Assembly: GCA_001770815.1 (NCBI GenBank)
Contig: MESD01000019.1
Location: forward strand, 15,973-79,972
Source: Burkholderiales bacterium RIFCSPHIGHO2_12_FULL_69_20
GTDB taxonomy: Bacteria; Pseudomonadota; Gammaproteobacteria; Burkholderiales; Burkholderiaceae_C
Direction: 5' to 3'
Length of the DNA: 64,000 nucleotides
The position numbers and the translations under genes were made by a program. The notes below the pieces were generated by a model. That model had not been told where the DNA came from. It made no database searches and was given only the letters and a program-made list of their open reading frames with translations. Shown one piece after another: positions 7,365 through 19,996 of this stretch (positions within the stretch are counted from its first letter, which is position 1; the number at the start of each line of letters is the position of its first letter).

Positions 7365-10154
7365 ATGAACCCCTGTCGTCCGCGATCGATCCGCACCGCC
7401 TGCCTGATCAGCCTGGCTTTGCTCACCGGCCTGGCCGGCAGCCCGGCACAAGCCGCCGACAAATGGGTCAGCCTGGACAAGGCGCGCGGTCAGGGCGTGT
7501 TCCAGTGGGACAACGGGGCGCGCTACGAGGGCGAGGCCGCCAACGGCAAGCGCCATGGCCGCGGCACCATCACCTACCCGGACGGGCGGCGCCTGGAAGG
7601 GGTGTTCAGCAACGACGACATCGTCTCCGCGCGCACCACGCGCGCCGACGGCACGGTGCACGACGGCAGCTACCAGCGCGGCCGGGCCAACGGCCGCGGC
7701 AGCCAGACCTGGCCCGATGGCCGGCGCTTCGAGGGCGAGTTTCTCGACGACCAGCCGATGCAGGGCAGCCTGCAGCTGGCCAGCGGCCAGCGCATCGAGG
7801 TCGACCGGCGCATGGTGCTGCAGCGCCAGACCGGCCGCGGCGTGTTCGTGGGGCTGGCGGGTGAACGTCACGAGGGCAGCTTCGAGGCCGGCTCGCTGCA
7901 GGGCAGCGCGGTCAGCGTGATGCTCAGCGGCCAGCGCTACGAGGGCCAGTATCTCCAAGGCCGGCAACACGGCAGCGGCCGCTACAGCTGGCCCAGCGGC
8001 CAGTACTACGACGGCGAGTGGCAAGCCGGCACCTACCACGGCAAGGGCACGCTGGTGATGGCCGATGGCCAGCGCTACGAGGGCGCCTTCGTCGCCGGCA
8101 AGCGCGAGGGCCAGGCCCGCGTGACCTGGCCGAACGGCGATGCCTTCGAAGGCCGCTATGCCGCCGGCGTGGTGGCCGAAGGGCGCATGAAGTACGCCAG
8201 CGGTCAGGTCTACGAAGGCGGCTTCGATACCGCTGGCTACCGCGGCGGCCCGGGTGTCTACACCTGGCCCAGCGGCCAGCGCGTGCAGGGCAACTACGTC
8301 AAGGGCCGGCTGCAGGGGCCGGGCCAGTTGGCCTGGGCCAACGGCGACCGCTTCGAGGGCGATTTCCACGACAACGAGCCGAGCTTCGGCCGCCACATCG
8401 CGGCGGACGGCAGCTCGCGCGAAGTGGACCGCCGCGCCGAAGCCAGCGGCCTGACCGGCCGCGGCGTCAGCATCGGCGCCGGCGGCGAGCGTTATGAAGG
8501 CGAGTTCGTCGAGGGCAAGCGCCAGGGCGCGGGCGTGCTCACCTGGCCCGACGGCCGGCGCGACGAAGGCCAGTACCACCAAGGCCGGATGGCCAGCGGG
8601 CGCATCGCCTACGCCACCGGCCAGGTCTATGAGGGCGGCTTGGACGACCAGGGCCGGCGCCACGGCCGCGGCACCTACACCTGGCCCAGCGGCCAACGCT
8701 ACGAGGGCGACTGGCTGGCCGGCCAGTACCACGGCAAGGGCAAGCTCACGCTGGCCGACGGCGGCATCTACGAGGGCGACTACGTGGCCAACCAGCGCAA
8801 CGGCCAGGGTGTGCTGACGATGGCCGACGGCGCGCGGTACGAAGGCGGCTGGCTGGCCGACAACTACGCCGGCCAGGGCCGCATGCGCTACGCCAGCGGC
8901 CAGGTCTACGAAGGCCAGTGGTTGGCCGGCCAGCGGGCCGGCCGCGGCGCCTACACCTGGCCCAGCGGCCAGCGCTACGACGGTGAATGGGTGGCCGGCG
9001 AGCAGCAGGGCCAGGGCGAGATGGTGTTTGCCGACGGCGACCGCTACGCCGGTGAGTGGCTGGCCGGCAAACGCCAGGGCAGCACCCGCAACGAGCAGGC
9101 CAACAGCAGCCGCCAGACCGAGCGCGCCAGCGAATCGGTGAGCACCGGCCAGGTGATGGCCAGCCTGTTCGGTGCCGCGCTGATCGGGCGGGCGTCGGGC
9201 ATCGACGGTGGCGAGAAGGCGCGGCTGATCACCGGCTTCGTCTCCGACGTGATGGGCGATGGCAAGGGCCAGGCCACCCGCGCGGCCTCGGCCGAGATCC
9301 AGGCCGGCCGGCAGCAGGCCGAGGCCGCCCGCCTGGCGCTGGCCGAACAGGCCCGGCGCATGGACGAGCAACGCCGCGCGCAGCAGCAATTGCAGCAGCA
9401 GCAACAACAGCAGCAGTCCCAGCGCCAGGCCGAGCAGCAGGCGCAGCAGCGCCGCCAGTCGACGGCGCAGGCGTCGGGCTCAACGGCGCCGCAGGCCGAC
9501 CCGCTGCTCAACCAGCTCAAGGCCCAGCTGAGCCCGGCGCAGGCCGCGCAGTTCCAGGCCGTGGTCGATGCCGAGGCCCGGCGCAAGGCCGATGCGGCCC
9601 GGGCCGGCCAGAGCCAGGTCGTCGCACAAGCGCAGGCACAGGCGCAGTCACAAGCGCAGTCACAAGCGCAGTCACAGGCGCAGTCACAGGCGCAGTCACA
9701 GGCGCAGGCACAAGCCCAGGCACGCGCGCAGCGCGACGCCGAAGAGGCGCAGCGTGCGATCGACGAGGCCAGGCGCAAGGCCGATCGCGACGCCGAGCAG
9801 GCGCGCAAGAAGGCCGAGCGCGAAGCCGAGCGCCAGGCCGAGGCAGCGGCCAAGGCGCAGGCCGAGACCGAGTACCTGCAGCAACTGCGCAGCACCGCCA
9901 AGCTGCGGGTGATGAACTGCTTCGGCGAGATCCACGTCGCCGCGGCCGCGCCCAAGGCCAAGGAAGTGGTGCCCTGCGTCGACCTGCGCTTCAGCGCCTA
10001 CTGCCCGGGTTCGGCCGTGCCCATCCCCGGCCTGCTGAAGAACTGGATCCGCTACGACGGCGGCTGCTACGGCGACACCGCGCGCATCCCCAAGCCGGTC
10101 TGCAACTACAAGGACCTGCGGCTGGTAGCCGACGAGGCCACCAGTTGCCGCTGA
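7365..10154 (+). CDS. Exported MORN-repeat protein with coiled-coil and Cys-rich C-terminus
   Basis: Protein of 929 residues with a Sec signal peptide (ISLALLTGLAGSPAQA, cut about residue 30). Residues about 35 to 570 are more than twenty MORN-type units of 23 residues (pattern YTWPSGQRYEGDWLAGQYHGKG). MORN arrays form elongated beta-sheets that bind lipids or proteins. Residues about 640 to 850 are Gln/Ala/Arg-rich, with a QAQS repeat and a predicted charged coiled coil (KADRDAEQARKKAEREAE). The last 80 residues form a small domain with six cysteines, fitting disulfides in the periplasm. It starts 77 bases from the divergent tgt gene. No function is assigned; a structural or scaffold role in the envelope is inferred. 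Confidence 0.85.
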   Translation: MNPCRPRSIRTACLISLALLTGLAGSPAQAADKWVSLDKARGQGVFQWDNGARYEGEAANGKRHGRGTITYPDGRRLEGVFSNDDIVSARTTRADGTVHDGSYQRGRANGRGSQTWPDGRRFEGEFLDDQPMQGSLQLASGQRIEVDRRMVLQRQTGRGVFVGLAGERHEGSFEAGSLQGSAVSVMLSGQRYEGQYLQGRQHGSGRYSWPSGQYYDGEWQAGTYHGKGTLVMADGQRYEGAFVAGKREGQARVTWPNGDAFEGRYAAGVVAEGRMKYASGQVYEGGFDTAGYRGGPGVYTWPSGQRVQGNYVKGRLQGPGQLAWANGDRFEGDFHDNEPSFGRHIAADGSSREVDRRAEASGLTGRGVSIGAGGERYEGEFVEGKRQGAGVLTWPDGRRDEGQYHQGRMASGRIAYATGQVYEGGLDDQGRRHGRGTYTWPSGQRYEGDWLAGQYHGKGKLTLADGGIYEGDYVANQRNGQGVLTMADGARYEGGWLADNYAGQGRMRYASGQVYEGQWLAGQRAGRGAYTWPSGQRYDGEWVAGEQQGQGEMVFADGDRYAGEWLAGKRQGSTRNEQANSSRQTERASESVSTGQVMASLFGAALIGRASGIDGGEKARLITGFVSDVMGDGKGQATRAASAEIQAGRQQAEAARLALAEQARRMDEQRRAQQQLQQQQQQQQSQRQAEQQAQQRRQSTAQASGSTAPQADPLLNQLKAQLSPAQAAQFQAVVDAEARRKADAARAGQSQVVAQAQAQAQSQAQSQAQSQAQSQAQSQAQAQAQARAQRDAEEAQRAIDEARRKADRDAEQARKKAEREAERQAEAAAKAQAETEYLQQLRSTAKLRVMNCFGEIHVAAAAPKAKEVVPCVDLRFSAYCPGSAVPIPGLLKNWIRYDGGCYGDTARIPKPVCNYKDLRLVADEATSCR
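9625..9720. repeat. 12-bp tandem repeat in MORN protein gene
   Basis: Eight imperfect copies of CACAGGCGCAGT (variants CACAAGCGCAGT and CACAAGCCCAGG) within the coding frame, producing Gln-Ala-Gln-Ser repeats between the Gln-rich linker and the coiled coil. Unit length is a multiple of three, so copy change alters linker length only. Confidence 0.9.
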
Positions 10155-10821: not shown

Positions 10822-11949
10822 TTACAGCGTGCCTTGCCAGCTCAGCGCGAATTCGCGCGAGCGCGCGGCGGCGTCCAGGCGGTCTGCGCCGGCCTGCAGC
10901 TGCCAGCCGCGCCAGGCCAGTGCCAGCGTGGCGCGGCGCTCGTGCAGGCGCCAGCCCAGGCCCAGCTGCACCGGACCGATGGCCGCTGAGTTCAGCCGCT
11001 GCTGCCACTGCAGCGCTGGCAGGGCGCCGAAGCCGGGCACGGTGTCGATGGTTGCGGCCAGTTGCTGGCCCTCGGCCACCGTGCGGCTGAGGGCCAGATG
11101 GCCGCGCCAGGGCTGCGTGCGCGTCAAGCCCGCCTGGGCATTGCGGCCCTGAACCAGCGGGCGGAACACCACGAAGCCGTCGGCATCCAGCCCCTGCGCA
11201 TCGGTGGCCAGCGTGGCCTGCTGTTGCGGCAGGCCGCGCCAGTGCAGCCAGCCGCCATCGCGCAACGCGGCGCGTGCCGACCAGGGGCCGGCATGCCATG
11301 CCAGCTCGGCGCCAAGCAAGGCGCCGACACCACGCCGGGCAAAGGCCTGCTGGAACGGGAAGTCGAGCCGGTCATCCAACTCGCTGGATTGCAGCGCAAA
11401 GGCATAACTCGCGATCGACGCGTCGTAGTGCACCGGGCCGTGGATGCTGCGCTCGCGCCAGCGGCCCAGCGCCAGCAGCTGGGCCGACAGCTCCAGCGTG
11501 AGACCCGGTGCCAGCGGCCATTCACGCGCCACCAGCGCCCCGGCGCCCGAGAAGGCGCGCAGCTGCATGTCGGCCGCCCAGCGTGCATCGGCCGCCGGGC
11601 GCTGGCCACTGTCGACCAGCGCGGCCAGCAGCAGCGTCTCGCGGCTGGCCACCAGCGTGGCCTGGCTGCGCGCCAGCAGGCCGAACGTCCAGCCCCCGCT
11701 GCGCCGCTGCAGCCGCAGTTGCTCGTCGACATAGGCCAGGTTGCGGCCCGGCCGCGGCGCCAGGTGGCGCCAGTCGTCGTCGCCCAGGGCGGCCAGCGGC
11801 AGCGCGTCGCTGTGGCGATCGCTGCGAAGGTTGAACTGCCAGGCCGTATCGGCCTGGGCAAGCTGGGCGGGTAGTTGGGCCGCTGCCGGCCGCAGCACGG
11901 CCAGCAGCGCCAGCGCGCCGCCGGCCGCGATTCGGCCGAGCCGACTCAC
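10822..11949 (-). CDS. Exported beta-rich protein, possible outer-membrane barrel
   Basis: I do not recognise this 375-residue protein. It starts with a signal peptide (ALALLAVLRPAAAQ) and continues with alternating hydrophobic/polar stretches rich in Trp, Arg and Leu, such as GGWTFGLLARSQATLVASRE. The ending SREFALSWQGTL resembles the last strands of outer-membrane barrels, though the final residue is Leu and not the classic Phe. The GTG start overlaps the stop of the upstream lipoprotein gene by 4 bases (GTGA), so the two are translationally coupled and probably act together at the outer membrane. Confidence 0.6.
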   Translation of the reverse strand: MSRLGRIAAGGALALLAVLRPAAAQLPAQLAQADTAWQFNLRSDRHSDALPLAALGDDDWRHLAPRPGRNLAYVDEQLRLQRRSGGWTFGLLARSQATLVASRETLLLAALVDSGQRPAADARWAADMQLRAFSGAGALVAREWPLAPGLTLELSAQLLALGRWRERSIHGPVHYDASIASYAFALQSSELDDRLDFPFQQAFARRGVGALLGAELAWHAGPWSARAALRDGGWLHWRGLPQQQATLATDAQGLDADGFVVFRPLVQGRNAQAGLTRTQPWRGHLALSRTVAEGQQLAATIDTVPGFGALPALQWQQRLNSAAIGPVQLGLGWRLHERRATLALAWRGWQLQAGADRLDAAARSREFALSWQGTL

Positions 11950-14432
11950 AGACCGACGTCCAGCGACACGAAGCTGTTGTCGCTGAAGGTGACCACGCCG
12001 CTGTTCATGTTGACGCTGCCGATCACCAGGCTGTCGCCCTGCACCAGCTCGACCGCGCTGGCGCCGTCGACCCAGTTCAGCGACAGGCCGGCGCTGGCCT
12101 CGGTCAGCTTGAAGCGGTTGACCTCGCCGGTGGCCGCATCGCGCGAGCCGGTGACCGAGACCACCAGCCGCGGCTGGCCGGCCACCAGTGTGCGGTACTG
12201 CAGCGTCACGCCCTGGGTGCTGCCGTCGTCGCTGTCGCGCAGGTGCGTGCCGCCGAAGCTGATCTCCAGCACCGGCCGGCCGGGGGCGGTGATGCTGCCG
12301 ACGAAGCCCATGTCCGTGCTGTAGTGGTTGCTCGCCGAATACACCTGCGTGGCGTCGAAGGCCGCGTAGCCGGTGGTGCTGGCCGTGAACTCGCCCTTCA
12401 GGAACTCGGTCGTCGTGCTGCCGGCGATGTTGCGCAGCGCGCCGCTGAGCTTGGCTGCGGTGGGCAGCAGCACGGTGCCGCTCTTGTCCCAGGCCGATGC
12501 GCCGATCTCGAACACGCCTTCGAACTCGGCCGTGGCGGTGGCAAACACCAGGTCCAGCGTGCCGCCGGTCAGGTCGCCGCCGGCCGGGGCCACGGCCGCG
12601 GCCGAGCTGGGTGACACCAGGTTGCCATCGGCATCACGGCTGACCGGTGCGCTGTTCAGGCTGGCGCTCTTGACGGTCAGCGTGGACAGCGTGGTGCCGG
12701 CGCTGTCCTTGGCGGCCAGGCTGCCGGTCACCGTGGCCGATTCCAGCTTGGCGGTGGTGGCGTCGATGGTGCGGGTGCCGCTCAGCGAAACAGCATGCTG
12801 GTGATTGGCCAGTGCCGTGCCGCCGCTTTCGAAGCCGCCGGCCCAGGTGCCCACCATCGTGAAGGCGGTGATGCTGCCGTTGCCGAGCGTGGGCGTCACG
12901 GTGCCGGTGAACGGCGGCAGGTCGGCGCCGGCACTGTCCTGCTGCAGTGCGGCGTTGGACAGCGTGGCGCCGGTGTTGGTGGTCACGCGCAGCCGGGCGC
13001 GGGTCTGCCAGCCGTAGCTGCCGTCGCTGTTGGGCGTGATGGTGAAGCCGTGGCGGTACTCGTTGGTGGTGAAGCCCGTGCTGGTGGCGCTGCGTGTCAG
13101 GTAGTAGCGCGCGCTGCAGCCGATGAAGTTGGCGTTGTCAGGCGCGGTGGCGGTGGTCAGCGTGGTGGCGTCCTGGTACAGCGTGCAGCCGGCTGCGTTG
13201 TAGCCCGAGAAGTTGGCGGAGCCATCGTTGTCCACCTGGTCGAGCCCACGGCCGCGGCTGGGCACCGAGGTGCGGCCGGCCTTGTAGTCGTTGAACAGGT
13301 CGATGCCCATCAGCAGCGCGCCACTGTTGGTCAGCAGCGTATTGACCGGCAGGTGCACGTCGCGCATCGCGTCGTCGAAGGCGTTGGCCTGCAGGTTGGC
13401 CGCGCCGCTGGAGATGGCGCTGCCGCGGCTGAACATCGCCGACCAGTCGCTCTTCATCTCGGCAAACAGCAGTTTGGCCGCGGCGATGGCGGTGGCGGTC
13501 TTGTCGACGGTGGGTGTGGTGCCGGTGGTGGCGGCGGTGCAACTGGTGGTGCAGGCCAGGTTGGCCACCACGGTGGCCAGTGCCGACGAGCTGACCGCGC
13601 CCGCCAGGTCGGGGTTGGCCAGCACCGTGCTGACCGCGCCGCTGAGCACGGCCGAGACATCGGTGGCGGTATTGCCGCTGCCGCTGCTGAGCTTGATCGA
13701 GGTGGTGGAGGCGGCGGCGCCCAGCGCGTCGACCACACACTGGGTCTTGTCGCCGGCGCTGCCGGTGCCGCAGCCCAGATCGCCGTTGCTGGCCATCTGC
13801 GACACGGCGGTCAGCATCACCGCCAGCTTCTGCTCGTCGCCGCTGACGGCGGTGGCGGTGGTGGTGGCAGCCACGGTGGTGGGGTTGAAGCCCAGCAGCT
13901 GCGTGACGGTGGAGATCGCCTGCGCCGCATTGCCGGCGGTGACGCCGCCGGTGGCCTTGGCCGCGGCGGCCACGGCCATCTCGCTGAACGGCGTGATGCT
14001 GGCGCTGGTGGTCACCGCGCCGGTGGCGGTGGGCACCACCAGCGAGCGCATCTGGAAGCCCACCGGCAGCGGCTGGGCGGTGCCGGTCACCTCGTCGGCA
14101 TGGGTGGTGCTGGCGTTGGCGCTGACACGCACCACGTAAGGCTGGTCCTTGGTGCCGGTGAAGCTCAGGCTGTAGCGGCCCTGCGCGTCGGTGGTGGTGG
14201 TCTGCAACGCCACGGTGGCCACGCTGCCGTCGGCATTGACGGCATACACGCCGACATCGGCATTGGCCATCAGGCCCTTGGCCGCGGTGCCGCTGAGCGC
14301 CACGGTGGCGGTGGTGGTCGGCGTGACCGGGGTGACCGGGGTGACGGGCGTGGTGGCATCGGTGCCACTGCCACCACCGCAGGCGGCCAACAGGCCGGCA
14401 CTGGCCATCGCGACGAAAAGGGTCTTGCGCAT
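11946..14432 (-). CDS. Large putative outer-membrane lipoprotein
   Basis: Lipoprotein of 828 residues. The start at 14432 gives a clear lipoprotein signal: MRKTLFVAMASAGLLAAC, lipidated at Cys18, then a Gly/Ser linker and a VTPVTP repeat. A GGAG site lies about 11 bases upstream. The ORF-track extension to 15014 crosses the response-regulator gene and is not real. The body is Thr/Ala/Ser/Gly-rich and beta-like, with an early Ig-like segment (ALSGTAAKGLMANADVGVYAV) and no catalytic motif that I can name. It heads a two-gene operon with the exported protein downstream and faces the divergent response regulator, with a palindromic operator in between. The function is unknown; surface adhesion or ligand binding is only a guess. 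Confidence 0.7.
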   Translation of the reverse strand: MRKTLFVAMASAGLLAACGGGSGTDATTPVTPVTPVTPTTTATVALSGTAAKGLMANADVGVYAVNADGSVATVALQTTTTDAQGRYSLSFTGTKDQPYVVRVSANASTTHADEVTGTAQPLPVGFQMRSLVVPTATGAVTTSASITPFSEMAVAAAAKATGGVTAGNAAQAISTVTQLLGFNPTTVAATTTATAVSGDEQKLAVMLTAVSQMASNGDLGCGTGSAGDKTQCVVDALGAAASTTSIKLSSGSGNTATDVSAVLSGAVSTVLANPDLAGAVSSSALATVVANLACTTSCTAATTGTTPTVDKTATAIAAAKLLFAEMKSDWSAMFSRGSAISSGAANLQANAFDDAMRDVHLPVNTLLTNSGALLMGIDLFNDYKAGRTSVPSRGRGLDQVDNDGSANFSGYNAAGCTLYQDATTLTTATAPDNANFIGCSARYYLTRSATSTGFTTNEYRHGFTITPNSDGSYGWQTRARLRVTTNTGATLSNAALQQDSAGADLPPFTGTVTPTLGNGSITAFTMVGTWAGGFESGGTALANHQHAVSLSGTRTIDATTAKLESATVTGSLAAKDSAGTTLSTLTVKSASLNSAPVSRDADGNLVSPSSAAAVAPAGGDLTGGTLDLVFATATAEFEGVFEIGASAWDKSGTVLLPTAAKLSGALRNIAGSTTTEFLKGEFTASTTGYAAFDATQVYSASNHYSTDMGFVGSITAPGRPVLEISFGGTHLRDSDDGSTQGVTLQYRTLVAGQPRLVVSVTGSRDAATGEVNRFKLTEASAGLSLNWVDGASAVELVQGDSLVIGSVNMNSGVVTFSDNSFVSLDVGL

Positions 14433-14570
14433 GGGTGAACTGCTCCAGGAAGTCGAAAAAGGGGGGCCGGATTGCAGGCCACCAAGGGCGCTGCACCGGC
14501 GGTGCCGCAGCGGCCCGAGGGTAGTGACCACCAGCGACACCATTCTTGGCCCCAAAGACAACAGGGCGCC

Positions 14571-14586
14571 TCGGCCATTCGGCCGA
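14571..14586. promoter_or_regulatory. Palindrome TCGGCCATTCGGCCGA, copy 1
   Basis: A perfect inverted repeat (6-bp arms, 4-bp centre) between the divergent lipoprotein and LuxR-type regulator genes. The identical 17 bases including the next T occur again at 16310, and a 14/16 copy is found at 18831. It is a candidate operator of the neighbouring two-component regulator. A second shared word, TTGGCCCCA, lies at 14546-14554. Confidence 0.6.
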
Positions 14587-14661
14587 TGGTCAGGCGATGG
14601 TGCGTGCTGTAATTCGCGCTCCTGATCCCGCATAACTCGAAGAGACCGCGTCCACCGTCGC

Positions 14662-15297
14662 ATGAAAGCCCTGCTGATCGATGACCACACCCTGTTTCGT
14701 GATGCCCTGGGCCTGCTGATCGGCGCACGGTTTCCTGAGCTTGAACTGCTGGCCGCCGGCGACCTGGCCGGTGCGCTGGCCACGCTGGCCGCGCATACCG
14801 ACGTGCGGCTGGTGCTGCTGGACCTGAACCTGCCCGATTCACAAGGCCTGGCGTCGATCACCCGGCTGCGCGAGGCCGCGCCGGAGGCCCGGCTGGTGGT
14901 GCTGTCGGCCGACGACCGGCCCGAGACGGTGGAGCAGGCGATCGAGCAGGGCGCCTGCGGCTTCGTGCCCAAGACGTCGCGCGGCGACCTGCTGCAGCAG
15001 GCGCTGCGCATCACGCTGGACGGGGGCGTCTACCTGCCGCCGGGCAGCACGGTGAGCGCGGCGCCGCCGCCGGCGGCCGGCGTCACGCCGCAGGCCCTGG
15101 GCCTGTCGCCGCGCCAGGCCGACGTGCTGCGCCTGCTGATCGACGGCCAGCCCAACAAGCAGATCTGCCGGGTGCTCGATCTGTCGGAATCCACCGTCAA
15201 GACCCACCTGGCCGCGGTGTTCCGCCGCCTCGACGTGAACACCCGCACCCAGGCGGTGCTGGCTGCGGCCAGGCTGCGGCTGCGGTTCAGCGACTGA
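14662..15297 (+). CDS. NarL/FixJ-type response regulator
   Basis: Two-domain transcriptional regulator of 211 residues. The receiver domain (1 to about 120) has the acidic pair DD at 7-8, the phospho-acceptor Asp54 in VLLDLNLPDS and the conserved Lys in FVPKTS. A Pro/Ala linker joins it to a LuxR-type helix-turn-helix (about 145-205: LSPRQADVLRLLIDGQPNKQICRVLDLSESTVKTHLAAVFRRL). It lies convergent to the hybrid histidine kinase/PEP-CTERM frame, which is its likely partner, and divergent to the lipoprotein operon. NarL-type regulators bind short palindromes such as the one at 14571 in its own promoter region. Confidence 0.92.
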   Translation: MKALLIDDHTLFRDALGLLIGARFPELELLAAGDLAGALATLAAHTDVRLVLLDLNLPDSQGLASITRLREAAPEARLVVLSADDRPETVEQAIEQGACGFVPKTSRGDLLQQALRITLDGGVYLPPGSTVSAAPPPAAGVTPQALGLSPRQADVLRLLIDGQPNKQICRVLDLSESTVKTHLAAVFRRLDVNTRTQAVLAAARLRLRFSD

Positions 15298-15333
15298 CCG
15301 GTGCGGCCGGCGGACCGGCCGGCCTCGGCTGCG

Positions 15334-16230
15334 TCAGGCTGGGCGCCGGCGCGCCGCCGCCCAGCCCAGCAGCCCCAGGCCGCCGAGCATCATCGCCAGC
15401 GTCGAGGCCTCGGGCACCGGCATCGCCACGATAGGGATGCTGCTCTGCACCACGCTGAAGCGATCGGCGAACGCCGGGTCGATGGTGATGATCGGGTCTA
15501 TGTAGCCGCCCAGAGCCCAGCTATAGCCCGCGTCGTTGTAGAGGCTTGAGTTCAGCGGCGTGCCGTGCGCTTCCATGCTGATGGTGTGGAAGAGGTTCGG
15601 CATGACCAGCGCGCTGAAGGTTTCCGAGAACGACCCCGAGCCGCTGGCTGTGACGCTGCCACCCGGCGCGGACAGCACGGCGCCCCCGAAGTCGGAATAG
15701 GGCACGCTCATCCCCAGTCCGGCGGACACGCCGTGGACCCGCTCGTGCGAGCGCCCGTCTTCATACAAGTAGAACCGGCTGCTGATGCCCACGACCAGCC
15801 AGTTGGCATCGGCGCTGGCACGGTGGTCCGGGTCCAGGGACGTGGCTGAGACCCGGCCCCAGATTTGACCCAGCGTTGTGATGGTGACCGGCACCAGCTC
15901 ACCGTCGTCGCTGGCGCCGGCGATGGACCACTGGTAGCTGAGCGAGGCATCGACAACGGCAAAGCTGCGACCGCTGGCGGCGGCGCTGAACGCAATGAAC
16001 GGCACGGCCCCTGCGCTGGCGCCCAAGGTGGCGCTGGCGCTGGCCGGGCCGCTGGACAGCTGGTGCGTGCCGAAGCTGTTGGCAGACGCCACGTCCGGGA
16101 CGACGAGTCCGGAGCCCGCGATCAGATTCGTGGAGACCGTAGCCGTCGGCACCGCCACCGTGGCCGAAGCCGTTGTTGCCGCAAGGGTTAGGACAAACAG
16201 GGCCGACAAGGGGATCAGGGTGCGATTCAT
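15334..16230 (-). CDS. PEP-CTERM sorted exported protein
   Basis: Probable separate 298-residue product starting at ATG 16230. It has a signal peptide (MNRTLIPLSALFVLTLAATTASA), a beta-rich Ser/Ala/Gly body without a known enzymatic motif, and a textbook C-terminal sorting signal: VPEASTLAMMLGGLGLLGWAAARRRPA (PEP-like motif, hydrophobic helix, basic tail). Such proteins are cleaved and attached by an exosortase at the cell surface, often together with exopolysaccharide. The palindrome and the TGGGGCCAA word shared with the lipoprotein promoter lie 43-95 bases upstream, which supports an own promoter. No strong ribosome-binding site is seen. It is in frame with the upstream kinase without a stop codon between. 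Confidence 0.75.
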   Translation of the reverse strand: MNRTLIPLSALFVLTLAATTASATVAVPTATVSTNLIAGSGLVVPDVASANSFGTHQLSSGPASASATLGASAGAVPFIAFSAAASGRSFAVVDASLSYQWSIAGASDDGELVPVTITTLGQIWGRVSATSLDPDHRASADANWLVVGISSRFYLYEDGRSHERVHGVSAGLGMSVPYSDFGGAVLSAPGGSVTASGSGSFSETFSALVMPNLFHTISMEAHGTPLNSSLYNDAGYSWALGGYIDPIITIDPAFADRFSVVQSSIPIVAMPVPEASTLAMMLGGLGLLGWAAARRRPA

Positions 16231-18795
16231 GGGGTGCGGGGCGGGGCTGCGCCGGTTCGGGTGAGTGACGTTTTGGCCCCAGTCTGGACGCCGGGCTGCA
16301 CCCCGCCCATCGGCCATTCGGCCGATCCCCCCGCGGGTGCGGGTAGATCCCCCCGCGCGCGGCCCCGCCATCACCTCGGCGATCGCCGCGTGCAACTGCT
16401 CGGCACGAAACGGCTTGTGCAGCACCGGCAGCCCGCTGGCGCCCAGCGCGGCGATGTCGGCCGGCGCGGTGTTGCCGGTGACCACCAGCACCGGCAGCTG
16501 GCCGAAGCGGCGCCGCGCCAGCGCCACCACGTCGAAGCCGCTGCCGCCGGGCAAGCGCAGGTCGGTGATCAGCAGGTCGGCCTGGCGCTCGCCCGGGGGC
16601 AGCGCGTCCAGCGCGGCGCGCAGCGCGCGCGGGCCATCGAAGGCGGTCACGCTGGCGCCCCAGGCCTGCAGGCGGGCGGCCAGGGCCTCGCGCACCGCGC
16701 GGTCGTCGTCCACCAGCACCAGGTGCCGGCCCGCCAGCCAGCGCGCAGGCACGGCCATCGACGGCGCGCTGCCCGCCTCAGGCGCTGCCGCAGCGAGCAG
16801 CAGCAGGCTGAAGCAGCTGCCGCGCCCGGGCACCGAGCGCAGGCCCAGCGTGGCGCCCATCAGGTCGGCGCTGCGCTGCACGATGGCCAGGCCCAGCCCG
16901 AGGCCCTGCGCCCGGTCGCGCTGCGGGTTGGCCAGCTGCACGAACTCCTCGAACACGGCCGCCTGCTGTTCGACGGGAATGCCATGCCCGCTGTCCCACA
17001 CCTGCAGCCGCACCTGGCCGTCGGCCGTGGCGCGCGCGGCCAGCAGCAGGCCGCCGCTGTCGGTGTAGCGCACCGCGTTGCTGACCAGGTTGCGCAGGAT
17101 CTGCTCGAGCAGCGCCGGGTCGGCCTGCACCGCCAGCGCCGTGGGCCGCACGCGCAGCCGCAGGCCTTTCTGGCGCGCGGCCTCGCCCTCGTGCACGGCC
17201 ACGGCGTCGAACAGCGGCTGCAAGGCCATCGGCTGCGCCTGCACCCGCACCGTGCCCGAATCCAGCCGCGACAGATCAAGCAGCCGGGCCAGCAGCGCCT
17301 CCATCGCCGCCACCGCCTCGTCGACCTTGGCCACCATGTGGCGCTGCGCCGGGGCCAGCACCTGCTCGCGCAGCAGGCCCACCAGCAGCCCGATGGTGAC
17401 CACCGGCTGGCGCAGGTCGTGGCTGGCCGCGGCCAGGAAGCGCGACTTGGCCGCGGTGGCCGTGGCCAGCGCATGGGTGCGCTCGCGCACGCGCTGCTCC
17501 AGCGTGAGGTTGAGCACCTCCACTTGCGCCATGGCCTGCGCCAGGCGGCCCACCATCAGCACCGCGAAGGCCAGCACCATCAGCGGCGTGGCCAGCGGCA
17601 GCCACCAATGTGCGGTGATGGCCAGGTGGCCCTGCTGGAAGCGGTAATCGTGCGCGCCGGCCACCATCACCACCACCAACGAGGCCAGCAGCGCGGCCAG
17701 CTCGCCACCGCGCATGGCCCGCACCCGTTGCGCGATCAGCACCAGTGCGGGCAGCGCCAGCGCACCCAGCAGCGGGTAGGCCACCGCGCGCACCCGGTCA
17801 ATGGCCACCGTGCCCGACAGGCTGGCGCCCGCGCCGACCAGCACCATCAGCGTCGCGCCACCCAGCAGCAGCGGCCGGTAACCGCGGGGCCGCTGGCGTG
17901 TCAGCGACATCGCGAACAGCCCCAGCAGCACCACCGTGCCCACCTGCACGGCAAAAAACAGCGCCGAGGCCAGCGCCGGCGGCAGCCCCGGGTTGACCAC
18001 GTAATAGGCCTGGTTGCGCAGCGACACGCCCAGCCCCAGCAGGCCGAACCAGCCCATCGCCGATTCGCTGCGCCGCCGCCACCACATCAGCAGCGCAAAG
18101 CCACAGGCACCGGCCGCCGCCAGGTTGAGCTGCTGCGGCAGCCCCACCGTCAGGTTCTGGTGCAGGCGGTGCTCCAGCGCCATCGCCGTGGCCGGCCCCA
18201 GCCGCAGCGTTGACAGGCCGGCGCGCAGCCCGCTGTCGACCTGCAGCAGCACCTGGTTGGCACCCGGGCGCAGCAGGGCCGGCGGCAGCGGCAGCAGCCG
18301 CGGCAGCGCCTGGGCGCGGCCCACCTCGTCCTCGCCGAAGCTGTCGTGCAGCAGCGCGCCGTTGAGCCACAGCCGGTGGCGGCTGCCCAGGCGCTCGGCA
18401 CGCAGCGCCCACAGCGTGCCGTCGGCGGCCGGCGGGCCCGCCGGCTGCGCGGGCGCCGGGGTCTGCGGGGTCGGCAGCGTCATCTGCCAGCGGTACCAGC
18501 CCATCGCCGGGCGCGCCACCCCGCGCTGCGACCAGGTGTCGGGCAGGGCGACGCGGGTCCAGGGTCCGTCGGGCGACAGGGCGAATTCGGCCTCGCGCAG
18601 TTCCTGGGGCGCCGGCGTGGCCTGGGCTGTCGCCAGGGTGGGCGCGGTGGCGGCCAGCCAGGCCAGCAGCATCCGCAAAAACACACGCAACAACGCACGC
18701 AACAACGCATGCCACGACAGCGGCCCGATCCAGGCCAGGCCTGGCCGGGGCCCCCAGGGCGGCGCGGCGCCGCAGGCAGCGCGCACCCACTTCAT
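15334..18795 (-). CDS. 7TM hybrid sensor histidine kinase, frame continues into PEP-CTERM protein
   Basis: The continuous 1153-codon frame encodes a sensor kinase in its first about 820 codons. A signal anchor and an extracytoplasmic beta-sandwich domain (about 60-205, WYRWQMTLP and HRLWLNGALL) resemble the 7TMR-DISM sensor type. About seven membrane helices follow (225-420), then HisKA with SHDLRQP (His459), a HATPase with NAVRYTDSGG and WDSGHGIP, and a C-terminal receiver domain (LVLVDDDRAV, LLITDLRLPGGSGFD). The kinase part should end near EVMAGPRAGG, but no stop exists there. The frame runs through the presumed promoter region of the next gene and into its signal peptide. A separate PEP-CTERM gene is listed below. 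A real fusion, stop loss, or a miscount in one of two G6 runs are the alternatives. Confidence 0.8.
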   Translation of the reverse strand: MKWVRAACGAAPPWGPRPGLAWIGPLSWHALLRALLRVFLRMLLAWLAATAPTLATAQATPAPQELREAEFALSPDGPWTRVALPDTWSQRGVARPAMGWYRWQMTLPTPQTPAPAQPAGPPAADGTLWALRAERLGSRHRLWLNGALLHDSFGEDEVGRAQALPRLLPLPPALLRPGANQVLLQVDSGLRAGLSTLRLGPATAMALEHRLHQNLTVGLPQQLNLAAAGACGFALLMWWRRRSESAMGWFGLLGLGVSLRNQAYYVVNPGLPPALASALFFAVQVGTVVLLGLFAMSLTRQRPRGYRPLLLGGATLMVLVGAGASLSGTVAIDRVRAVAYPLLGALALPALVLIAQRVRAMRGGELAALLASLVVVMVAGAHDYRFQQGHLAITAHWWLPLATPLMVLAFAVLMVGRLAQAMAQVEVLNLTLEQRVRERTHALATATAAKSRFLAAASHDLRQPVVTIGLLVGLLREQVLAPAQRHMVAKVDEAVAAMEALLARLLDLSRLDSGTVRVQAQPMALQPLFDAVAVHEGEAARQKGLRLRVRPTALAVQADPALLEQILRNLVSNAVRYTDSGGLLLAARATADGQVRLQVWDSGHGIPVEQQAAVFEEFVQLANPQRDRAQGLGLGLAIVQRSADLMGATLGLRSVPGRGSCFSLLLLAAAAPEAGSAPSMAVPARWLAGRHLVLVDDDRAVREALAARLQAWGASVTAFDGPRALRAALDALPPGERQADLLITDLRLPGGSGFDVVALARRRFGQLPVLVVTGNTAPADIAALGASGLPVLHKPFRAEQLHAAIAEVMAGPRAGGSTRTRGGIGRMADGRGAARRPDWGQNVTHPNRRSPAPHPMNRTLIPLSALFVLTLAATTASATVAVPTATVSTNLIAGSGLVVPDVASANSFGTHQLSSGPASASATLGASAGAVPFIAFSAAASGRSFAVVDASLSYQWSIAGASDDGELVPVTITTLGQIWGRVSATSLDPDHRASADANWLVVGISSRFYLYEDGRSHERVHGVSAGLGMSVPYSDFGGAVLSAPGGSVTASGSGSFSETFSALVMPNLFHTISMEAHGTPLNSSLYNDAGYSWALGGYIDPIITIDPAFADRFSVVQSSIPIVAMPVPEASTLAMMLGGLGLLGWAAARRRPA
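16310..16325. promoter_or_regulatory. Palindrome TCGGCCATTCGGCCGA, copy 2
   Basis: Exact second copy of the 16-bp inverted repeat, about 80 bases upstream of the PEP-CTERM start codon (minus strand) and inside the read-through part of the kinase frame. As at copy 1, the word TGGGGCCAA (plus strand TTGGCCCCA, 16273-16281) lies between the palindrome and the gene. The spacing differs from copy 1 by 12 bases, close to one helical turn. Confidence 0.6.
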
Positions 18796-18830
18796 GCGCC
18801 GATTGTGGGCCGGCGTCGGGCCCGGTCGCC

Positions 18831-18846
18831 TCGTCCATTTGGCCGA
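18831..18846. promoter_or_regulatory. Palindrome copy 3 (TCGTCCATTTGGCCGA)
   Basis: Matches copies 1 and 2 at 14 of 16 positions. It lies 36 bases upstream of the histidine kinase start and about 68 bases upstream of the divergent serC gene. Its place fits autoregulation of the kinase by its cognate regulator. Confidence 0.45.
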
Positions 18847-18913
18847 AGGCCGGTGACGACAACCGTAAACTCGTGCGCTTGCCCTGCCCCCTCACAGACC
18901 GGAGACCCCGCCC

Positions 18914-19996
18914 ATGACCCGCGTGTTCAACTTCAGTGCCGGCCCCGCCGCCCTGCCCGAATCGGTGCTGCAGACCGCTGCCGCCGAGATGCTCGACTGG
19001 CACGGCTCGGGCATGAGCGTGATGGAGATGAGCCACCGCGGCAAGGAGTTCATCAGCATCGCCGACGAGGCGCAGGCGCTGCTGCGTGAACTGCTGGCGG
19101 TGCCCGCCAACTACAAGCTGCTGTTCATGCAGGGCGGCGCGCTGGCCGAGAACGCCATCGTCCCGATGAACATGCTGCGCGGCAAGACCGCGGCCGACTA
19201 CATCGACACCGGCGAGTGGTCGAAGAAGTCGATCAAGGAGGCGCAGAAGTACTGCACGGTCAACGTGGCGGCCAGCGCCAAGGCCGGTGGCTACACCAGC
19301 ATCCCGCCGCGCGCCGAGTGGCAGCTCAACCCCGATGCGGCCTACGTGCACATCTGCAGCAACGAGACCATCGGCGGCGTCGAGTACCACTTCACCCCCG
19401 ACGTGGGCAGCGTGCCGCTGGTGGCCGACATGTCCAGCGACATCCTCTCGCGCCCGATCGATGTCGCGAAGTACGGCCTGATCTACGGCGGCGCGCAGAA
19501 GAACATCGGCCCGGCCGGCCTGACGATCGTGATCGTGCGCGACGACCTGATCGGCCAGGCGCTGCCGGCCACACCCTCGGCCTTCGACTACAAGACCGTG
19601 GCCGACAACGACTCGATGTTCAACACCCCGCCCACCTACGCGATCTACATCGCCGCTCTGGTGTTCAAGTGGATCAAGGACCAGGGCGGCCTGGCCGCGA
19701 TGGCCACCCACAACGCCGCCAAGGCCGCGCTGCTGTACGACTTCCTCGACACCACCACGTTCTACAGCTGCCCGGTGGCGCGGGATTGCCGCTCGCTGAT
19801 GAACGTGCCGTTCCGCCTGAAGGACGAGAAGCTCGACGAGGCCTTCCTGAAGGGCGCCAAGGAACGCGGCATGGTGCAGCTGAAGGGTCACCGCTCGGTG
19901 GGCGGCATGCGCGCGTCGATCTACAACGCGATGCCGCTCGAGGGCGTGAAGACGCTGGTGGCCTTCATGAAAGAGTTCGAGGCGCAGCATGGCTGA
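18914..19996 (+). CDS. serC: Phosphoserine aminotransferase
   Basis: PLP enzyme of 360 residues that converts 3-phosphohydroxypyruvate to phosphoserine with glutamate as donor. It also serves the parallel step of pyridoxal phosphate synthesis. The start [20 protein letters not shown], the [12 protein letters not shown] motif and the PLP lysine in [11 protein letters not shown] are diagnostic. The length is normal. A GGAG site precedes the ATG by about 10 bases. The stop overlaps the serA start by 8 bases, so both serine-pathway genes are one operon and probably translationally coupled. Confidence 0.96.

Follow-up and report, generated by a model that had tools for sequence, protein, structure and literature searches.

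The stretch of DNA considered here (the window) comprises 64,000 nucleotides of contig MESD01000019.1 of Burkholderiales bacterium RIFCSPHIGHO2_12_FULL_69_20 and harbors a palindrome, TCGGCC-RWWY-GGCCGA, which recurs at three positions among the genes of a two-component system, a lipoprotein operon, and a PEP-CTERM surface protein (Table 1), and which is believed to represent the operator of the response regulator encoded beside it. Both PF00072 and PF00196 match this regulator above cut-off, and its gene is convergent with that of the hybrid histidine kinase. The PEP-CTERM protein is recognized by PF07589 (31.5 bits against a cut-off of 20.7) and, given that the source genome carries two exosortase genes, qualifies as a PEP-CTERM/exosortase substrate.

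Table 1. Genes, palindromic sites, and predicted -10 elements of the locus (window coordinates)
Feature	Position	Strand	Remarks
Second gene of the lipoprotein operon	10822..11949	-	Adjoins the lipoprotein gene also in L064, L161, and L300
Lipoprotein (LLAACGGG lipobox), 828 amino acids, first gene of the divergent operon	11946..14432	-	Orthologous in L064, L161, and L300
Predicted -10 AAGAAT, lipoprotein operon	14542..14547	-	23 bp from site 1
Putative operator site 1 (TCGGCC-ATTC-GGCCGA, exact)	14571..14586	.	Between the divergent lipoprotein and response regulator genes; kept in the same intergenic region of L064
Predicted -10 TGTAAT, response regulator gene	14608..14613	+	21 bp from site 1
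NarL/FixJ-type response regulator, 211 amino acids, receiver and GerE/LuxR helix-turn-helix	14662..15297	+	Presumed binder
PEP-CTERM surface protein, 298 amino acids	15334..16230	-	Homologues in G018 (53%) and G008 (44%) also have an upstream palindrome
Predicted -10 CAGACT, PEP-CTERM gene	16281..16286	-	23 bp from site 2
Putative operator site 2 (exact palindrome)	16310..16325	.	Upstream of the PEP-CTERM gene and within the stop-free 3' continuation of the kinase frame; same placement before both genus homologues
Hybrid histidine kinase: HisKA, HATPase, and receiver, preceded by a putative sugar-binding jelly roll (GH2-like) and a probable seven-transmembrane region	16381..18795	-	
Predicted -10 CACAAT, kinase gene	18802..18807	-	23 bp from site 3; L064 has GACAAT at the same distance
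Putative operator site 3 (TCGTCCATTTGGCCGA, 14/16)	18831..18846	.	Before the kinase gene; 16/16 conserved in G018

The threefold repetition of the palindrome, as described in an earlier note made from this DNA alone, was verified by a motif search of the window, in which TCGGCCATTCGGCCGA was found exactly at sites 1 and 2, with T as the following base in both cases, and TCGTCCATTTGGCCGA represents the third copy. Eight matches with up to three mismatches occur in the window, whereas shuffled sequences averaged 1.39 and none of 100 shuffles reached eight. Across the whole 5.5 Mb genome, sites 1 and 2 are the only exact copies, a single copy with one mismatch lies within a coding sequence, and approximately 57 degenerate matches occur at two mismatches. 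The random genome-wide scatter, coding regions included, which the earlier note had posed as the contrary case, was searched for and not found: the better matches other than the three window sites are nearly all intragenic. The sequences flanking the sites are mutually unrelated. The three window copies are not a product of chance.

Comparison with relatives, for which gene boundaries were derived from a small codon-usage gene finder and some of whose genomes are fragmentary, revealed TCGGCC-RWWY-GGCCGA (at most one mismatch) in 13 other genomes, and in 12 of these a regulator related to the NarL-type protein of the window was shown to be encoded. Among named relatives, Rubrivivax sp. C18 (L064) stands closest: its regulator is 77% identical and its lipoprotein-regulator arrangement is the same, with TCGGCCATTCGGCCTA in the corresponding gap and TGGGCCGTTTGGCCGA before the kinase gene; beyond the kinase it has a queA-like gene rather than serC, and it lacks the PEP-CTERM gene. 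The kinase of G018 is 89% identical, and since site 3 is conserved there at 16/16 positions within an otherwise diverged spacer, this imperfect copy is a maintained rather than a decayed site. A search of 401 family genomes identified 22 further genomes with the regulator, and the palindrome (at most one mismatch) was present at ten of the regulator loci (L160, L162, L163, L165 [twice], L170, L173, L175, L176, L177, and L178). All of these sites are intergenic, and the genes that they precede encode a kinase, a regulator, a lipoprotein whose lipobox is of the AACGGGG type, a PEP-CTERM protein, or, in L177, a secreted protein, while perfect palindromes elsewhere in the same genomes are, with few exceptions, intragenic. 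The lipoproteins under the site are diverse in sequence (for example, L162 10801-11994 and L163 3699-4895), one being an RCC1-repeat protein and others sharing an N-terminal GxAAxGxxL motif, a pattern indicating that the target varies while the predicted promoter stays.

The intergenic placement was quantified across 27 regulator loci outside the window (354 kb), using the 59 other arrangements of the same half-site letters as controls. TCGGCC-N4-GGCCGA (at most one mismatch) gave 14 intergenic sites in 12 of the 27 loci, compared with a mean of 0.71 and a maximum of 3 for the permuted half-sites; with the RWWY center specified, 13 occurrences compared with 0.14 in approximate dinucleotide-preserving shuffles. 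Among 48 genomes, the perfect palindrome was found 19 times and its reversed control 3 times, and in the regulator-bearing genomes of this set, half of the perfect copies (6/12) are no more than about 4 kb away from the regulator gene.

When 25 site-to-gene directions were aligned and scored by offset for a sigma-70 -10 hexamer, the score peaked exactly 23 bp past the palindrome (a mean of +1.23, versus -5.47 for the next-best offset), a peak which none of 1,000 shuffles equaled. With the -10 element placed at -12 to -7, the palindrome would cover approximately -51 to -36 relative to starts which are predicted rather than mapped. Several palindromes, namely site 1 of the window, that of G179, and, in a later scan, that of L204, possess a -10-like element on both sides, which fits a single dimer serving two divergent genes. 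The sequence TGCTGTAAT before the regulator gene is also present in L064 and L161. Site 3 is additionally situated 68 bp upstream of serC, which is divergent from the kinase gene (window 18831-18914); TAAACT, 19 bp from this site and conserved in G018, may represent the serC -10 element, and effects on serC are conceivable.

The 401 genomes were then searched blind for a composite pattern consisting of the palindrome, 23 bp, and nAnnnT, with no more than one mismatch allowed. Its hits were mostly intragenic, as chance predicts, and at one mismatch the background was near that of the reversed control, such that the pattern is informative only when combined with intergenic placement. Its intergenic hits include a new locus in G231, in which the lipoprotein and regulator genes are divergent, the kinase gene is convergent, and the second operon gene is present (the regulator being 44% identical), and another in G211 with divergent lipoprotein and regulator genes. 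In addition, G181 yielded a second AACGGGG lipoprotein that is unlinked to the system, and one lipoprotein was common to G394 and G263. A position weight matrix scan recovered weaker sites before lipoproteins or the regulator in the seemingly empty loci L161 and L204; as the matrix was built including the earlier sites, this recovery lends support but is no independent test.

Only 3 of 21 genus members encode a protein homologous to the PEP-CTERM protein of the window, and all three carriers have a perfect palindrome 70 to 85 bp before its start. In G008 and G018 this gene and the kinase gene are on separate contigs, the former being flanked in both cases by TetR/SsuA-like genes, and a DNA-pattern search and a protein search, conducted independently, converged on these same two PEP-CTERM genes. 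The PEP-CTERM gene appears to have been recruited or moved together with its putative operator. A general PEP-CTERM regulon was considered and rejected, since among the other listed matches with at most one mismatch none was near any of the 60 PEP-CTERM hits in the source genome.

The kinase and PEP-CTERM genes of the window form one open frame of 1,153 codons (15334-18795, minus strand) without an intervening stop. In relatives such as L064 the kinase ends at the close of its receiver domain, and in G008 the PEP-CTERM gene is located elsewhere; the missing kinase stop is either a real consequence of the arrival of the PEP-CTERM gene or a sequence error. At the boundary between the two genes, GATCCCCCCGC occurs twice as a direct repeat (window 16324-16356), while G018 displays a similar GC-rich hairpin and GGGGGGATCGGCC ahead of its palindrome; the direct repeat is possibly the insertion junction of a PEP-CTERM cassette. 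The earlier note had also observed TTGGCCCCA alongside the first two palindromes. It indeed has two exact copies in the window, at 14546 and 16273, yet it was found neither at the orthologous site of L064 nor at the L208 and L189 sites, and it overlaps the predicted -10 element from upstream at site 1 while running from the -10 element into the predicted start at site 2. As it is not conserved and its position relative to the -10 element shifts, it was rejected as a companion element and looks incidental.

The sites, their conservation, their exclusive placement in promoters near the regulator, their coupling to the regulator, kinase, lipoprotein, and PEP-CTERM genes, and the fixed -10 spacing are established at the sequence level; we infer the regulator as the binder, its activating role, and the nature of the signal. 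We propose, at a probability of roughly 0.85, that TCGGCC-RWWY-GGCCGA serves as operator for the NarL-type regulator encoded beside it, within an autoregulated two-component regulon which activates surface lipoproteins and one PEP-CTERM protein. A signal, probably a carbohydrate or a constituent of the matrix, would activate the kinase at its GH2-like periplasmic domain, and the kinase would then phosphorylate the regulator. A dimer of the regulator would occupy the 6-4-6 inverted repeat, which at about -51 to -36 would stand in for a -35 box, and would recruit RNA polymerase to the -10 element 23 bp downstream. The genes switched on in this manner would be those of the regulator itself, the kinase, the divergent lipoprotein operon, and the PEP-CTERM protein, with the symmetrical site between two promoters presumed to serve both the regulator gene and the divergent lipoprotein operon. 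The locally linked, autoregulated LuxR-type regulon for surface proteins put forward in the earlier note is thus supported, in that the site tracks the regulator, kinase, lipoprotein, and PEP-CTERM genes across 14 genomes, in promoters and at a fixed distance from the -10 element. Its description as local is too narrow, as targets can be unlinked (G008, G018, and G181), and control would extend to a single PEP-CTERM gene among about 60.

Several observations weigh against this proposal. Some sites lack a good -10 element at offset 23 in one direction (the kinase sides in G033 and G181, and C13 of G008), and site 2 lies within the open frame that continues from the kinase rather than in a clean gap. 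Furthermore, about half of the regulator relatives at 40 to 60% identity have no recognizable site within 6 to 7 kb, and the recognition helices look alike in relatives with and without a nearby site; a difference in this helix was considered as the cause of the site-less loci and rejected, as none was found, and the link between regulator and site is consequently a statistical one. The same site-less loci would be accommodated if a different, unlinked transcription factor used the palindrome and happened to regulate the two-component system and the surface proteins, and the regulator's identity as the binder is, after all, a point which we infer from sequence. We nonetheless regard such a factor as quite improbable, because the sites stay with the genes for the regulator, kinase, and lipoprotein in the varied genomic neighborhoods of a dozen genomes, and because the sampled genomes without a regulator match at E <= 1e-45 have their perfect palindromes within genes or between convergent gene ends (G018 aside, in which the kinase contig is truncated). 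Autoregulatory sites beside a regulator's own gene are, moreover, common. The geometry also matches that of CrbR, a relative of the regulator, for whose ACTU repeat a position of -52 to -36 in target promoters has been reported and which activates from there (PMC5715377).

This position bears equally on the direction of control. A regulator bound at -51 to -36 could also block the access of polymerase, and ErdR of Pseudomonas aeruginosa is known to increase some targets and decrease others (PMC9927353), both of which would suit a regulator that represses from the same sites. Activation is favored by the promoter geometry, in which the site replaces the -35 box at a fixed distance from a mostly nonconsensus -10 element, as is typical of activator-dependent promoters, and by the activation that CrbR exerts from the same position; repression is accordingly considered unlikely. 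That the sites are chance palindromes of GC-rich DNA, or copies of a dispersed repeat element, is hardly credible: GGCC-rich palindromes are common in such genomes, and matches at two mismatches number about 57 in this one, but the degenerate copies elsewhere are nearly all intragenic, the flanks of the sites are unrelated to one another, and the conservation and -10 spacing tests refute it, the exact copies being unique and the permuted and shuffled controls far lower.

Among known systems, CrbS/CrbR (MxtR/ErdR) similarly combines a hybrid kinase with a NarL-type regulator (PMC5715377), and the imperfect inverted repeat of CrbR is of similar length and lies at -52 to -36, compared with -51 to -36 from the predicted starts here. 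Although ErdR is the best NCBIfam hit of the window regulator, the score of 140.5 bits for NF041830 falls below the equivalog cut-off of 390. The half-site is TCGGCC rather than the ACTU repeat of CrbR (e.g., TACGACTAAAGTCTAAA), no SLC5/STAC sensor domain was matched in the window kinase, and the targets are surface proteins here and acs/actP in that system. The kinase is related to, but by the model not a member of, the NahK/ErcS-type hybrid kinase subfamily (NF041832, 293.4 bits against a cut-off of 400). The predicted sensory architecture resembles the description of BmfS of the Burkholderiales relative Rubrivivax gelatinosus, a seven-transmembrane kinase with a periplasmic carbohydrate-binding-like domain, which is partnered by a LuxR-type regulator, BmfR, and promotes matrix and biofilm formation (PMC3684757). 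In contrast to the convergent kinase and regulator genes described here, bmfR follows bmfS and, in relatives, neighbors phoH/ybeY; no described operator of BmfR was encountered (PMC3684757). PEP-CTERM surface proteins are also controlled by PrsK/PrsR and RpoN in the related bacterium Aquincola (PMC9850573), although from sigma-54 -24/-12 promoters, as opposed to the NarL-type regulator and sigma-70-like -10 element proposed here; the PrsR-type model TIGR02915 scored the window regulator at 26.7 bits against a cut-off of 502.6. A literature search on the motif or the regulon returned nothing relevant.

With regard to the sensor, a Pfam search of the kinase identified no named sensor domain beyond HisKA, HATPase, and receiver, and 7TMR-DISM domains gave no Pfam hit at 0.001. 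A profile of the N-terminal part weakly matched GH2 sugar-binding domains in the PDB (E of about 0.015), and a structural model of modest confidence (a mean predicted local distance difference test [pLDDT] score of 62) places strands at residues 27 to 160 in a beta-sandwich followed by long helices and a multihelix membrane part. The Foldseek matches listed were all to glycosidases, the majority of them beta-galactosidases and beta-glucuronidases of the GH2 family (best E of 1.8e-3). Based on these GH2-like matches, the modeled beta-sandwich, and the likeness to the description of BmfS, a carbohydrate or matrix component is a plausible signal.

We lean, if only slightly, toward a broader reading, in which a previously undescribed, family-wide sugar- or matrix-sensing regulon of the Burkholderiales employs a seven-transmembrane kinase with a GH2-like, sugar-binding ectodomain and a NarL-type regulator to drive a set of surface lipoproteins and PEP-CTERM proteins that varies between lineages, all under a single, invariant promoter grammar (6-4-6 palindrome, 23 bp, and -10), with surface genes recruited or moved together with their operator. 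The proposed operator would turn an anonymous two-component system into a predictive rule, whereby operator, spacing, and -10 element locate target promoters in other genomes without gene annotation. It would also link a carbohydrate-type sensor to outer-surface lipoproteins and to just one of the 60 proteins in a PEP-CTERM family, offering a testable entry, separate from sigma-54 and PrsK/PrsR, into the regulation of surface proteins that are abundant and poorly understood.

The product of the second gene of the lipoprotein operon matched no Pfam family; its model is mostly beta at low confidence (mean pLDDT of 36), and it is possibly an outer-membrane barrel partner. Further along the window, positions 7365-10154 (plus strand) encode a protein of 929 amino acids that contains numerous YEGE-type (MORN-like) repeats together with a long tract rich in glutamine, alanine, and serine.

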